Source: Chryseolinea sp. H1M3-3 (GTDB lineage Bacteria > Bacteroidota > Bacteroidia > Cytophagales > Cyclobacteriaceae). Taken from it: a stretch of DNA of 64,000 nt. Position 1 is the stretch's first letter, and the number at the start of each line of letters is the position of its first letter. Below the pieces are notes generated by a model. It saw only the letters and a program-made list of their open reading frames with translations. It did not search any database and had not been told where the DNA came from. The position numbers and the translations under genes were made by a program. The stretch lies in assembly GCF_029360725.1 (NCBI RefSeq), contig NZ_JARKMY010000002.1, positions 248,001 to 312,000 of the forward strand. Direction: 5' to 3'. Positions 1 to 6,452 of the stretch are shown here, piece by piece.

Positions 1-328
1 TATCAAAGGAAGAAGACGTTTCCATGTGAACATCCTTGTTTTTCAAGGCCTCCTCCATGACAAAGGCGAAATGAGAAGATTTCGTACAATAACAGTACGT
101 ATATTTCCCATTGTACTTAAATCGCTCTATGGCATTGTTAAAAGTAGCCTGTACAAAACGTATATTTTCGCTTATTCTGGGTAGATACGTAAGTTTCAGG
201 GGGGTGCCATATTGTTTAATGATATCCATTAACGGCACATCATTAAACAGCAATTCGTGGTCTCGAACCTTAAATTCTCGCTGTGGAAACTCGAAGGTCT
301 GCTCAATCAGCTCGCGGTAACTCTTCAT
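1..328 (-). CDS. speA: Biosynthetic arginine decarboxylase, N-terminal part (3' end outside the window)
   Basis: The minus-strand frame from an ATG at 328 is open to the window edge, giving about 109 residues that begin MKSYRELIEQTFEFP. Further on come LLFNDVPLMDIIKQYGTPLK and KLTYLPRISENIRF, the N-terminal pattern of PLP-dependent (fold III) arginine decarboxylases of Bacteroidota, which convert arginine to agmatine plus CO2 as the first polyamine step. The catalytic PLP lysine and most of the barrel are not all in view, so this is a partial gene cut by the edge. It diverges from the arginase gene, and a deoxyhypusine-synthase-like gene lies 2 kb away, which supports a polyamine role. A plus-strand frame at 111-320 is its shadow. 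Confidence 0.82.
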   Translation of the reverse strand, partial: MKSYRELIEQTFEFPQREFKVRDHELLFNDVPLMDIIKQYGTPLKLTYLPRISENIRFVQATFNNAIERFKYNGKYTYCYCTKSSHFAFVMEEALKNKDVHMETSSSFD

Positions 329-2419: not shown

Positions 2420-3397
2420 ATGAGTCAAAACGGACCAATTTCTAGCTTTATTGAAAAGCATTATTTACACTTCAATGCGGCCGCATTGGTAGACGCAGCT
2501 AAATCGTATAAAAAGCACATCGCTGATGGCAAAAAAATGATGGTTACGCTAGCAGGTGCAATGAGTACCGGTGAGCTGGGAATTAGCTTTGCTGAAATGA
2601 TTCGTCAGAACAAAGTACAAATCATTTCATGTACTGGTGCGAACCTCGAAGAAGATATCATGAACCTGGTGGCTCATTCACATTATAAACGCATTCCCAA
2701 TTACAGGGACCTAACACCTGAACAAGAATGGGATTTGCTTAAAAATCATTTGAACCGTGTAACGGATACCTGCATTCCTGAAGAGGAAGCATTTCGAAAA
2801 TTGCAGAAACATCTTTTCAATGTTTGGAAAACTGCTGAGGATAAGGGTGAACGTCTTTTCCCGCATGAATTTATGTTCAGACTTCTCAACAGCGGCGATC
2901 TAAAGCAGTACTATGAAATTGACCCAAAAAACTCGTGGATGATTGCGGCCGCGGAAAAGAATATGCCAATGGTTGTTCCCGGATGGGAAGACTCTACCAT
3001 GGGAAATATCTTTGCTTCTTATGTATTCACCGGTGAATTGAAGGCGTCAACCATGAAGAGCGGTATCGAATACATGACATGGTTAGCAGACTGGTACATA
3101 AAAAATTCAGGCAAGGACGGCATTGGATTCTTTCAGATAGGTGGAGGCATTGCCGGAGATTTTCCTATTTGTGTCGTGCCCATGTTGCACCAGGATTTGG
3201 AAAAAGACAATGTTCCTTTTTGGAGTTACTTCTGTCAAATAAGCGATTCGACTACGAGCTACGGCTCTTATTCGGGAGCAGTGCCTAATGAAAAAATCAC
3301 GTGGGGGAAATTAAGCATCGAAACGCCAAAGTTCATTATTGAAAGTGACGCGACGATCGTTGCACCATTGGTATTTGCTTACGTGCTGGGGTGGTAG
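2420..3397 (+). CDS. Deoxyhypusine-synthase family enzyme (bacterial DHS-like)
   Basis: At 325 residues this matches the DHS family, NAD-dependent enzymes that transfer an aminobutyl group from spermidine through a lysine imine. It has CTGANLEED (71-79), the GGG loop (241-243) and the C-terminal block ending WGK, where K297 corresponds to the catalytic lysine (human K329) and E291 and W295 to human E323 and W327. Compared by memory with human DHS, the pocket differs: Y281 and Y284 replace D313 and D316, and F248 falls where H288 would be. Bacteria lack eIF5A, so a free amine is the likelier acceptor, as in homospermidine synthase or another polyamine transferase. Nearby speA and arginase support that. 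The exact reaction cannot be read from the sequence. Confidence 0.8.
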   Translation: MSQNGPISSFIEKHYLHFNAAALVDAAKSYKKHIADGKKMMVTLAGAMSTGELGISFAEMIRQNKVQIISCTGANLEEDIMNLVAHSHYKRIPNYRDLTPEQEWDLLKNHLNRVTDTCIPEEEAFRKLQKHLFNVWKTAEDKGERLFPHEFMFRLLNSGDLKQYYEIDPKNSWMIAAAEKNMPMVVPGWEDSTMGNIFASYVFTGELKASTMKSGIEYMTWLADWYIKNSGKDGIGFFQIGGGIAGDFPICVVPMLHQDLEKDNVPFWSYFCQISDSTTSYGSYSGAVPNEKITWGKLSIETPKFIIESDATIVAPLVFAYVLGW

Positions 3398-3531
3398 TTA
3401 GTTAGCGTGTTTTTGAGGGCACTTGTGCACTACTTCAATCTTACAACAACATATTTATGGTAGACGAATCGTTGGTGAGACATTTAACAGCGATACGTTC
3501 ATCAACGATTAAAATTGATTTACAAGAATAC

Positions 3532-5319
3532 ATGAATCTTGATTTAGTTCTCCGTGCCAAAGTTGAAGAGGCTGTTTCATCTTTATTTCATCAGCAGACA
3601 GATAATCTTCAACTTCAGCCGACCAACCAGGAGTTCGAAGGTTCTCATACCGTGGTCTGTTTTCCATTGACAAAGCTTTCGAAAAAAAGCCCTGAAGAAA
3701 CAGCAAGGATACTCGGAGAGTATCTCCAGCAACATGCTGGCATTGTAAGTAAATATAATGTGGTAAAAGGTTTTCTTAACCTCGTGGTTGAAGACAAAGC
3801 ATGGGTCGATGTTTTTAAATCCATTTATGGAAACAAAAACTACGGACATCTTCCTGCTAATGGATTGGAGATTATGGTAGAATATTCTTCACCTAATACC
3901 AACAAACCCTTACACTTGGGTCACCTCCGAAATAACTTTCTGGGTTACAGCGTTGCTGAAATTTTCAAGGCAAATGGTTATAAAGTCCATAAAGTTCAAA
4001 TCATCAACGACCGGGGTATTCACATCTGTAAGTCCATGGCAGCATGGAAACTTTTCGGAAACGGAGAAACACCCGAAACCAGTGGAATTAAGGGCGATCA
4101 TCTGGTGGGTAAATACTATGTCGCTTTTGATAGAGCATATAAAGAACAAATCGCTGACTTGACCGACAAGGGCATTAGTCAGGAGGAGGCCGAAAAGCAA
4201 GCGCCGATCATGCAAATGGCTGTTGATATGTTGAGAAAATGGGAGCAGCATGACCCCGAAACCACACAACTTTGGAAGACAATGAATAGTTGGGTGTATA
4301 GTGGGTTTAACGCTACCTATAAGCGCATGGGTGTGGATTTTGAAAAGTTGTACTATGAATCGGATACCTATCTTTTAGGAAAGGAAGAAGTCCTGAGAGG
4401 CGTAGAACGTGGCGTATTTTTTAAGAAACCGGACGGATCAGTATGGGTTGATTTGACTTCCGATGGGCTGGATCAGAAGGTTTTGCTCAGGGCTGACGGC
4501 ACTTCTGTTTATATGACACAGGACATCGGTACGGCTATACTACGATTTAGGGATTTTCCAAAAATCACCGGTCAGATTTACACGGTTGGCAATGAACAAG
4601 AATATCACTTTAAGGTTTTGTTCCTGATCCTTAGCAAACTTGGTTACGACTGGGCAAAAAAATGTTATCATTTGTCGTATGGTATGGTGGACCTTCCCAG
4701 CGGAAAAATGAAATCGCGGGAGGGTACAGTGGTAGATGCCGACGATCTTATGAACGAGATGGTTGAAGAGGCAGAGAAACAAACACGGGAGTTGGGAAAG
4801 CTGGAAGGCGTTTCGGAAACTGATGCTGTAAAATTGTTTGACATGATTGGCCTGGGCGCCTTAAAATTTTTTTTGCTTAAAGTAGACCCTAAAAAGCGTA
4901 TGTTGTTCGATCCAAACGAATCGATCCAGCTACAAGGATTCACCGGACCGTTTATTCAATATACGCATGCCAGAATCAGGGCCATCATAAGGAAGGCGGA
5001 AAGCATTGATATTTCAGTGAATGTTGCGGATCTGCAATTACTTACTTCCCTTGAATCGGCAGAACGGGATGTATTGAAGGTATTGAGCCTGTTTGAGAAC
5101 AAAATTCGTGACGCCGCAAAGGAGTATTCTCCGTCTGTTATTGCGAACTATGCTTTTGATTTGGCAAAGCAGTACAACCAATTTTACCAGAGCATTCCTA
5201 TTTTCAATGAAGAGGATACATCAAAACTAAAATTCCGGATCGCTTTATCCGAAGCCGTTGCAGGCACTTTAAAGCGGGCAATGTTGTTGCTGGGTATAAC
5301 GGTTCCGGAGAAGATGTAG
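3532..5319 (+). CDS. argS: Arginyl-tRNA synthetase
   Basis: Class I synthetase charging tRNA-Arg in the cytoplasm. Visible are the arginyl N-terminal additional domain (first ~110 residues), the HIGH-type signature in KPLHLGHLRN, the KMSKS-like loop KMKSREGTVVDADDL, and the C-terminal DALR anticodon-binding domain ending near LLGITVPEKM. I chose the ATG at 3532 (about 595 residues, MNLDLVLRAKVEEAV) because it begins where bacterial ArgRS usually does. The frame is also open from ATG 3457, which would add 25 residues with no family counterpart. It follows the DHS-like gene by about 135 bases. The family assignment is secure; only the start is uncertain. Confidence 0.95.
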   Translation: MNLDLVLRAKVEEAVSSLFHQQTDNLQLQPTNQEFEGSHTVVCFPLTKLSKKSPEETARILGEYLQQHAGIVSKYNVVKGFLNLVVEDKAWVDVFKSIYGNKNYGHLPANGLEIMVEYSSPNTNKPLHLGHLRNNFLGYSVAEIFKANGYKVHKVQIINDRGIHICKSMAAWKLFGNGETPETSGIKGDHLVGKYYVAFDRAYKEQIADLTDKGISQEEAEKQAPIMQMAVDMLRKWEQHDPETTQLWKTMNSWVYSGFNATYKRMGVDFEKLYYESDTYLLGKEEVLRGVERGVFFKKPDGSVWVDLTSDGLDQKVLLRADGTSVYMTQDIGTAILRFRDFPKITGQIYTVGNEQEYHFKVLFLILSKLGYDWAKKCYHLSYGMVDLPSGKMKSREGTVVDADDLMNEMVEEAEKQTRELGKLEGVSETDAVKLFDMIGLGALKFFLLKVDPKKRMLFDPNESIQLQGFTGPFIQYTHARIRAIIRKAESIDISVNVADLQLLTSLESAERDVLKVLSLFENKIRDAAKEYSPSVIANYAFDLAKQYNQFYQSIPIFNEEDTSKLKFRIALSEAVAGTLKRAMLLLGITVPEKM

Positions 5320-5413: not shown

Positions 5414-5911
5414 ATGAAATTTCTACTAGCCCTACTAATCTTCATCTCACCCATGACAACCATTTATGATTTTAAAATGAATTCGCTTGAAGGTGAATTG
5501 ATTGATTTTGCGAACTACAAAGGAAAGACTTTACTGATTGTCAACGTGGCGTCTAAGTGCGGTTTTACACCCCAGTATGCTGACCTGCAACAAATGCAGG
5601 ATCAATACGGTGGCAAGGTTGTTATCCTCGGATTTCCGGCTAACAATTTCGGAGGGCAGGAACCGGGATCAAGCCTTCAGATTGCCGAGTTTTGTCAAAA
5701 GAACTACGGTGTTACTTTTCAGATGTTTGAAAAAATTTCTGTTAAGGGAAGTGATCAGCATCCGTTATATCAATTCCTGAAAGAAAAAACCGGCCAGGAG
5801 CCCAGCTGGAATTTCTGTAAGTATCTCGTTAAACCCGACGGTACGATCAAATTTTATCCATCCAAAGTAAAACCCATGGATAAAGAAATTCTTGATGAAA
5901 TTGGTGTTTAA
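5414..5911 (+). CDS. Glutathione peroxidase family protein, exported (copy 1)
   Basis: A 165-residue thioredoxin-fold peroxidase with a hydrophobic N-terminus (residues 1-17) that could be a short signal or anchor. The peroxidatic cysteine is C49 in ASKCGFTPQY, a resolving cysteine is C94 in EFCQKNYGVTF, and W132/N133 come from SWNF, so it should be a thioredoxin-dependent CysGPx reducing peroxides. The usual tetrad glutamine (FPCNQFG) is replaced by N78 in FPANNFGGQEP. The next gene, 19 bases on, is a close paralogue, so the two probably arose by tandem duplication and are co-transcribed. Confidence 0.9.
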   Translation: MKFLLALLIFISPMTTIYDFKMNSLEGELIDFANYKGKTLLIVNVASKCGFTPQYADLQQMQDQYGGKVVILGFPANNFGGQEPGSSLQIAEFCQKNYGVTFQMFEKISVKGSDQHPLYQFLKEKTGQEPSWNFCKYLVKPDGTIKFYPSKVKPMDKEILDEIGV

Positions 5912-5930: not shown

Positions 5931-6452
5931 ATGGGTCTGGTCGCATTTTTATACAACAAATTATCACGATCGGGCAAAACGCAGGCCCCGGTGGGAAACC
6001 TTTATGATTTGCAGATGAAAGATATCGAAGGCAACACGGTTGACTTTAATATCTTCAAGGGAAAAAAACTTTTAGTTGTCAATACAGCGTCTAAATGTGG
6101 TTACACGCCCCAATATTCCGAATTAGAGAAACTTCATGAGGAATATGGCAATAGGATAACGGTCCTCGGGTTTCCTGCTAATAATTTTTTATGGCAGGAA
6201 CCCGGGTCGGATCAGGAGATCGCGGCTTTTTGTCAGAAAAATTATGGTGTAACATTTAAGATGTTCTGTAAGGTTTCCGTTAAAGGAAAAGACCAGCATC
6301 CGCTATATCAGTGGCTTCAAGGAAAAACCGGCAAAACCCCGAGTTGGAATTTTTGCAAATATCTGGTGAACGAAGATGGAAACGAAGTCAAATTTTATTC
6401 TTCCGATATGCACCCCCTTGACCCGCAAATTCTGAGTGAAATTTCAAAATAG
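5931..6452 (+). CDS. Glutathione peroxidase family protein (copy 2)
   Basis: The 173-residue paralogue of the preceding gene has the same architecture: peroxidatic C56 in ASKCGYTPQY, resolving C101 in FCQKNYGVTF, W139/N140 in SWNF. N85 again stands in the position of the tetrad glutamine, and the motif reads FPANNFLWQEP, with LW replacing the usual glycines. The N-terminus (MGLVAFLYNKLSRSGK) is a weak hydrophobic stretch followed by basic residues, not a clear signal peptide, so the two copies may act in different compartments. An additional cysteine (C113, in MFCKVS) is unique to this copy. It lies 19 bases after copy 1 and 12 before the next gene, suggesting an operon. Confidence 0.9.
   Translation: MGLVAFLYNKLSRSGKTQAPVGNLYDLQMKDIEGNTVDFNIFKGKKLLVVNTASKCGYTPQYSELEKLHEEYGNRITVLGFPANNFLWQEPGSDQEIAAFCQKNYGVTFKMFCKVSVKGKDQHPLYQWLQGKTGKTPSWNFCKYLVNEDGNEVKFYSSDMHPLDPQILSEISK

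Follow-up and report, generated by a model that had tools for sequence, protein, structure and literature searches.

A Strongly Diverged Deoxyhypusine Synthase-like Clade of Bacteroidota with a Rebuilt Amine Pocket, Predicted to Form Homospermidine, and Its Relatives on Viral Contigs

Introduction

Homospermidine is a long-standing chemotaxonomic marker in Flavobacteriaceae. Several described systems offer a comparison for its synthesis. Bacterial homologues of deoxyhypusine synthase (DHS) of the SpeY type are described as making homospermidine from putrescine, and their genes as clustering with those for arginine decarboxylases and either speB or aguA/aguB (PMC10407285, PMC9992855). The caldomycin synthase CdmS of Thermus, also DHS-like, is reported to couple agmatine, carries Phe and Leu at the positions of human D243 and D316 (PMC10981699), and works with a ureohydrolase. 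Proteobacterial homospermidine synthase (HSS) is described as a different enzyme without the catalytic lysine (PMC4725965) and as kin of carboxyspermidine dehydrogenase (PMC9992855).

The pocket of human DHS is the reference for all DHS-like enzymes discussed below. According to the cited description, D316 holds N1 of spermidine, D243 and N292 hold N10 and H288 nears C5, while putrescine, bound by D243/N292 and E136/E137, sits at too great a distance from K329 (PMC7226451).

Identification and Predicted Structure

The window, a stretch of 64,000 nucleotides from Chryseolinea sp. H1M3-3 (contig NZ_JARKMY010000002.1), carries at positions 2420–3397 of the forward strand a gene for a DHS-like enzyme of 325 aa, predicted to be a homospermidine synthase. 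The reading frame was confirmed at exactly these positions (325 codons, ATG start). The product matches profile PF01916 over residues 17–321 (E = 1.4e-39, 136.6 bits, gathering cut-off 27) and is the sole PF01916 match of its genome, so the first-pass annotation had both the place and the family right. Among solved structures, archaeal and eukaryotic DHSs are nearest in sequence (best 8put, E = 4e-12). A structure predicted from a 31-row alignment has a mean pLDDT of 79.6 and a pTM of 0.82, and all 50 of the Foldseek matches listed for it are DHS entries, with TM-scores by query length of 0.63–0.71. Likeness to human and archaeal DHS extends to the fold (TM up to 0.71), the GGG motif and the equivalents of W327, K329 and E323.

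The window protein exceeds the cut-off of no NCBIfam model. It reaches 102.6 bits (cut-off 450) with NF001980/PRK00770, taken here as the model of SpeY, and 82.1 bits (cut-off 500) with NF002699, taken as the model of CdmS. A genuine deoxyhypusine synthase, with a protein lysine as acceptor, would share the fold and the catalytic lysine, but the best score of the DHS models, 100.7 bits, is far under the cut-off of 364, and PF01287 found no match in the genome, in line with the earlier statement that the organism has no eIF5A. We therefore regard this activity as highly improbable.

Active-Site Comparison

The residue alignment comprised the window protein, 25 more rows of its clade, named class W here (one row being the window's own copy), one Y284F variant, 20 proteins belonging to two other bacterial types, and fragments of three reference enzymes (human DHS, 8put and 7cmc). 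The block of K297, W295 and E291 aligns without gaps with human K329, W327 and E323; the catalytic lysine (codon at 3308–3310, forward strand, as are all codons below) and E291 (3290–3292), an amine anchor proposed from the literature on human DHS and CdmS, are thus kept, as first noted for the WGK motif. E77 and E78 correspond to human E136 and E137 and are likewise kept. In contrast, human H288, D243, N292, D313 and D316 are every one replaced. N196 (3005–3007) stands opposite D243, the anchor for the aminopropyl end of spermidine, and C251 opposite N292, the N10 anchor, so that class W has lost the N10 anchors of spermidine while keeping the equivalents of E136/E137 and E323. D247 and F248 (3158–3163) face H288 and H289, and Y281 and Y284 (3260–3271) face D313 and D316.

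The tyrosines agree with the first-pass annotation, and an alignment that might have restored the acids and the histidine leaves the substitutions standing. That annotation had placed F248 opposite H288, one residue off: the alignment is gap-free after the GGG motif and puts D247 there. The extra stretch between GGG and the lysine is real, at 9 residues rather than about 8 (54 positions in the window protein vs 45 in human DHS), and a loop longer than the human one also follows GGG in the class-2 and class-3 rows displayed. The tyrosines lie in the active-site loop 277–296, which has a pLDDT below 50 in the model, so their placement opposite the human residues is a sequence-based assignment.

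Two other residue patterns occur among the bacterial proteins. At human D243/H288/D313/D316, class-2 (CdmS-type) proteins have Phe/Asn/Asp/Leu (n = 15) and class-3 (SpeY-type) proteins Met/Asn/Thr/Leu (n = 4); class-2 proteins, not CdmS itself, were aligned, and the residues of CdmS are those given in the cited text (PMC10981699). Class W, with N196/D247/Y281/Y284, differs from both sets. It shares with SpeY the sequence family, the catalytic lysine and the loss of D243, H288 and D316, and with CdmS the sequence family, the lysine and the loss of D243 and D316, but has Asn196 and Tyr284 in place of the CdmS Phe and Leu. Leu at D316 is already present in both archaeal enzymes aligned. The aligned SpeY-type and CdmS-type proteins have lost the same acids and histidine; consequently, the losses are ruled out as proof of a new reaction, and the changed residues alone are a weak argument. 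Class W suggests that the DHS fold tolerates a rebuilt amine pocket, probably with its chemistry unchanged.

Phylogeny and Distribution

A PF01916-type match is present in 233 of 296 genomes sampled from the phylum (one match in 229, two in 4). Class W was found in 107 genomes, with 64–100% identity to the window protein, and is separated by a wide E-value gap from the matches in the remaining 126 genomes (24–31% identity among the matches listed). The typing of these 126 is based on 20 fetched loci, 15 with the class-2 residue pattern, one near variant and four with the class-3 pattern; seven of the 20 were scanned with NCBIfam, and five passed the cut-off of NF002699 and two that of NF001980. 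None of three class-W members scanned in the same way exceeded any cut-off. In a tree of 32 rows, class W sits on a fully supported branch of 5.2 changes per column, apart from the SpeY-type proteins; long branches make the root and the joins unsure.

Among 137 distinct class-W proteins, N196, D247, F248, E291, W295 and K297 are present in all, Y284 in 136 (Phe in one) and Y281 in 129 (Phe in eight), and 126 positions are invariant when gaps are ignored. A pattern conserved through so many distinct proteins is not due to chance or sequencing error. Within the DHS family, class W forms a strongly diverged branch that has no name.

The best 80 of 592 matches include carriers in Chryseotalea, Parapedobacter, Mucilaginibacter, Pedobacter, Chitinophaga, Sediminibacterium, Hydrotalea, Confluentibacter, Ancylomarina and Flavobacterium, the last with at least five records, one of them a MAG. 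Judged by these best matches, the window genome probably falls within or close to Cyclobacteriaceae. One genome has two class-W copies, one with Y284F (G154, L122 and L123). A Flavobacterium-like SpeA-DHS pair also occurs in CALPIE020000075.1, a record titled as a Bifidobacterium breve MAG and probably a mislabelled bin.

Genomic Context

Upstream of the DHS-like gene, at 640–1602 of the forward strand, lies an arginase-family ureohydrolase gene (TIGR01229, 228.8 bits, cut-off 227.6), and the window opens with the first part (1–328, reverse strand) of a gene for a SpeA-like arginine decarboxylase of 465 aa, which starts at 328 and leaves the window. We take this decarboxylase to have the alanine-racemase fold; its best NCBIfam model is speA, at 151.8 bits vs a cut-off of 624.1. 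The speA and arginase genes of the first-pass annotation are therefore confirmed for the arginase family, the decarboxylase being SpeA-like and under the speA cut-off. Between the ureohydrolase and DHS-like genes, at 1664–2314 of the reverse strand, is a 216-aa ORF with no NCBIfam or Pfam match; it is missing at that place in two other genomes (G049 and G186), where the two genes directly adjoin. The arginyl-tRNA synthetase gene downstream (3457–5319, forward strand; TIGR00456, 409.7 bits) is probably unrelated to the function of the DHS-like enzyme. Further on, two adjacent similar ORFs at 5414–5911 and 5931–6452 have, by eye, the look of the glutathione peroxidase family.

The ureohydrolase belongs to a Bacteroidota clade of the arginase family with the motif DAHADxH[TS]P...PSGN, that is, with His where other arginases carry the Asn of DAHxDxN. 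This Asn is presumably equivalent to rat N130, which binds the alpha-carboxylate. The clade occurs both with and without DHS-like genes. A tie between the His change and the DHS-like pathway was rejected, as the same change is found in three genomes (G013, G034, G131) with nspC and no DHS-like match.

Context was counted over a few kb per side in 119 class-W loci, several per genome in places and the window's own excluded. An arginine decarboxylase gene is present in 34 of them, arranged as SpeA-DHS (14 loci), SpeA-agmatinase-DHS (9), SpeA-agmatinase-CN hydrolase fusion-DHS (1), DHS-SpeA-NCPAH-AIH (7), DHS-SpeA ending at a contig end (1) and SpeA on the reverse strand followed by arginase-like and DHS genes on the forward strand (2). 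Two unrelated putrescine routes thus alternate beside the class-W enzyme, and the kinds of operon partner are those of SpeY: clustering with a decarboxylase plus speB or aguA/aguB has its counterpart in 10 loci with agmatinase and 7 with NCPAH and AIH. Three agmatinases tested exceed the TIGR01230 cut-off; two NCPAH and two AIH proteins tested are below the curated cut-offs and are named by similarity. One long-type SpeA tested passes at 656.5 bits (cut-off 624.1), and two proteins of the 465-aa type fail. The CN hydrolase fusion (L076, 4440–5954) joins a GNAT and a carbon-nitrogen hydrolase part and sits between the agmatinase and DHS-like genes.

Polyamine Genes in the Phylum and in the Window Genome

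Eleven of the 296 genomes, belonging to five families (f3, f8, f11, f18 and f28), have nspC (TIGR01047) above its cut-off. These 11 share no genome with the 107 of class W (Fisher 0.0087, kinship ignored) and one, G125, with the full set of 233 DHS-like genomes (Fisher 9.6e-7, kinship ignored). Within the window's order, class W is found in 10 genomes of two families, and another family (2 genomes) carries nspC without a DHS-like match. Since 53 of the 63 genomes without any DHS-like match are also without nspC over the cut-off, the exclusion rests on the 11 genomes of the five families.

Among the class-W genomes, 59 have matches to both PF00491 and PF04371 (the AIH family), 42 to PF00491 only, 5 to PF04371 only and 1 to neither; the corresponding numbers for the 126 other DHS-like genomes are 30, 18, 77 and 1. 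By these counts, the class-W enzyme coexists with either putrescine route. Proteins that pass the NCBIfam cut-off for bis(guanidino)-azanonane synthase (e.g., at L109) occur in genomes with the AIH family and no PF00491 match, a combination of 77 non-W genomes, few of them typed; this NCBIfam name may be wrong in many non-W genomes, or AIH may handle such products.

The same counts bear on a caldomycin-type reaction, in which class W would follow the CdmS chemistry with agmatine. This chemistry is described for Thermus CdmS (PMC10981699), the enzyme has a ureohydrolase gene close by in the window and immediately beside it in G049 and G186, and some PF00491 protein is present in 101 of the 107 class-W genomes. 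However, six class-W genomes have no PF00491 match, five of these having AIH, and NCPAH and AIH are paired with the enzyme in seven loci. The low score with the CdmS model also argues against it. The AIH/PF00491 argument is not proof, because 77 of the 126 genomes of the other types show the same combination; taking the evidence together, we consider the caldomycin-type reaction unlikely.

In the window genome itself, there is no PF01564 spermidine synthase match, and nspC is not over its cut-off (best 67.6 bits vs 409). The AIH-family protein reaches 395.6 bits with PF04371 and 268.4 with the NCBIfam agmatine deiminase model (cut-off 381.8), and the NCPAH-like protein 314.3 bits (cut-off 410.25). 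PF00491 has four matches and PF03435 ten, five of them over the cut-off. We take PF03435 to be the family that would hold CASDH or HSS kin, and with these ten matches, the genome may encode a homospermidine synthase of another fold.

Proposed Function

Class W is probably an NAD-dependent homospermidine synthase of the DHS fold that starts from putrescine; the family, the predicted fold, the kept lysine, the gene context, the nspC exclusion in the sample and the conservation within the clade were all observed. The product would be the same as that of proteobacterial HSS, made by a different enzyme. By analogy with DHS, bound NAD would oxidise putrescine, K297 would capture the imine and ammonia would be released, another putrescine would attack and NADH would reduce the product to homospermidine. 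Putrescine would come from arginine through SpeA, followed by a ureohydrolase or by AIH and NCPAH. With the changes D243 to N196 and N292 to C251, the aminopropyl anchors are gone, which would abolish the unproductive putrescine pose of human DHS; the free amine end would be held by E291, and E77/E78 may bind the acceptor. Substrate, product and the roles of single residues are inferred.

Among the points against homospermidine synthesis, the ureohydrolase of the window is of the arginase type, not the agmatinase type, and 85 of the 119 class-W loci have none of the partner genes listed above within the few kb per side. Algoriphagus presumably belongs to the family of the window organism. In the paper on that genus, putrescine, spermidine and spermine are derived from the genome, and homospermidine is absent from the text available (PMC11532033). 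Two Flavobacterium species had homospermidine as their major polyamine, with 20.5–27.3 umol/g of sym-homospermidine vs 0.2–0.3 of spermidine (PMC8570120), values from species other than the class-W records and applicable to the genus or family rather than to the window organism. Homospermidine is stated to be major in all Flavobacteriaceae in a text on Weeksella (PMC3072086).

A different polyamine transfer, with mixed donor and acceptor (e.g., agmatine and putrescine) or with a product that is longer or branched, would suit a clade that branches deeply and apart and has a distinctive, almost invariant pocket, and none of the literature matches listed assays a class-W protein. The recognised neighbour genes, however, are those of plain putrescine supply, and the major polyamine reported for Flavobacteriaceae in the text on Weeksella is homospermidine (PMC3072086); this transfer is quite improbable. 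The operon partners, the nspC exclusion and the Flavobacteriaceae homospermidine point to a known reaction, homospermidine synthesis, in place of the unknown polyamine step suggested by the first-pass annotation. Its expectation of a free amine acceptor is supported. A donor other than spermidine, one of the options it had suggested from the changed pocket, is likely on broader grounds, because the D243/N292 anchors have been lost, PF01564 has no match in the genome and nspC stays below its cut-off there; the changed pocket does not suffice as the sole ground. Among the literature matches listed (title or start of abstract), none assigns a class-W gene in Bacteroidota; priority is not claimed.

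Relatives on Viral Contigs

A BLASTP survey of 2023 reports no SpeY or DHS homologue in phages (PMC9992855). The scan of IMG/VR gave 54 loci (L218–L271) with class-W relatives of 44–76% identity, some near-identical to each other, and no class-W match was found in the cultured-phage and plasmid collections at E 1e-5. In the loci covering the respective sites, K297 is kept in 51/51, D247 in 52/52, N196 in 50/52, Y284 in 50/51 and Y281 in 45/51. The viral contigs include at least eight sets whose members have the same gene order.

PHROGs matches of 56 representative neighbours include, among the 25 of 83 families listed, the terminase large subunit, portal, major head, head closure, head-tail adaptor and tail proteins, with one member each. 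Ten neighbours were also scanned one by one. Six had no match, and four matched at 1e-10: L287 encodes a major head protein, 1.7 kb downstream from the class-W gene, L282 a virion structural protein, L275 a Dda-like helicase and L300 a peptidase. The 28 neighbours taken from more diverged sets include matches to families of DNA polymerase, primase and tail proteins, but 15 of 20 neighbours from the two most diverged sets, scanned singly, have no PHROGs match. Some contigs of the viral collection may be host DNA, e.g., L230 and L253, in which the class-W gene adjoins one for a ureohydrolase.

In a tree of 71 rows, the viral rows need 5–6 label changes, at least two of them forced by well-supported branches, with the bootstrap not settled. 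More than one transfer is therefore likely.

Conclusions

The broadest proposal has three parts: class W would form a catalytic type of its own within the DHS fold, with Asp for His and a Tyr pair for the Asps; it would be the homospermidine synthase so far missing in much of Bacteroidota; and it would be carried by several uncultured tailed-phage lineages that use it to remodel host polyamines. We give this proposal as a whole an even chance. Class W, present in 107 of 296 genomes of the phylum and nameless in NCBIfam by the three members scanned, provides a candidate gene for homospermidine synthesis. A phage version of the enzyme becomes testable, in contrast with the absence of phage homologues in the published survey. 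If the proposal is true, phages carrying class W would remodel the polyamines of their hosts.
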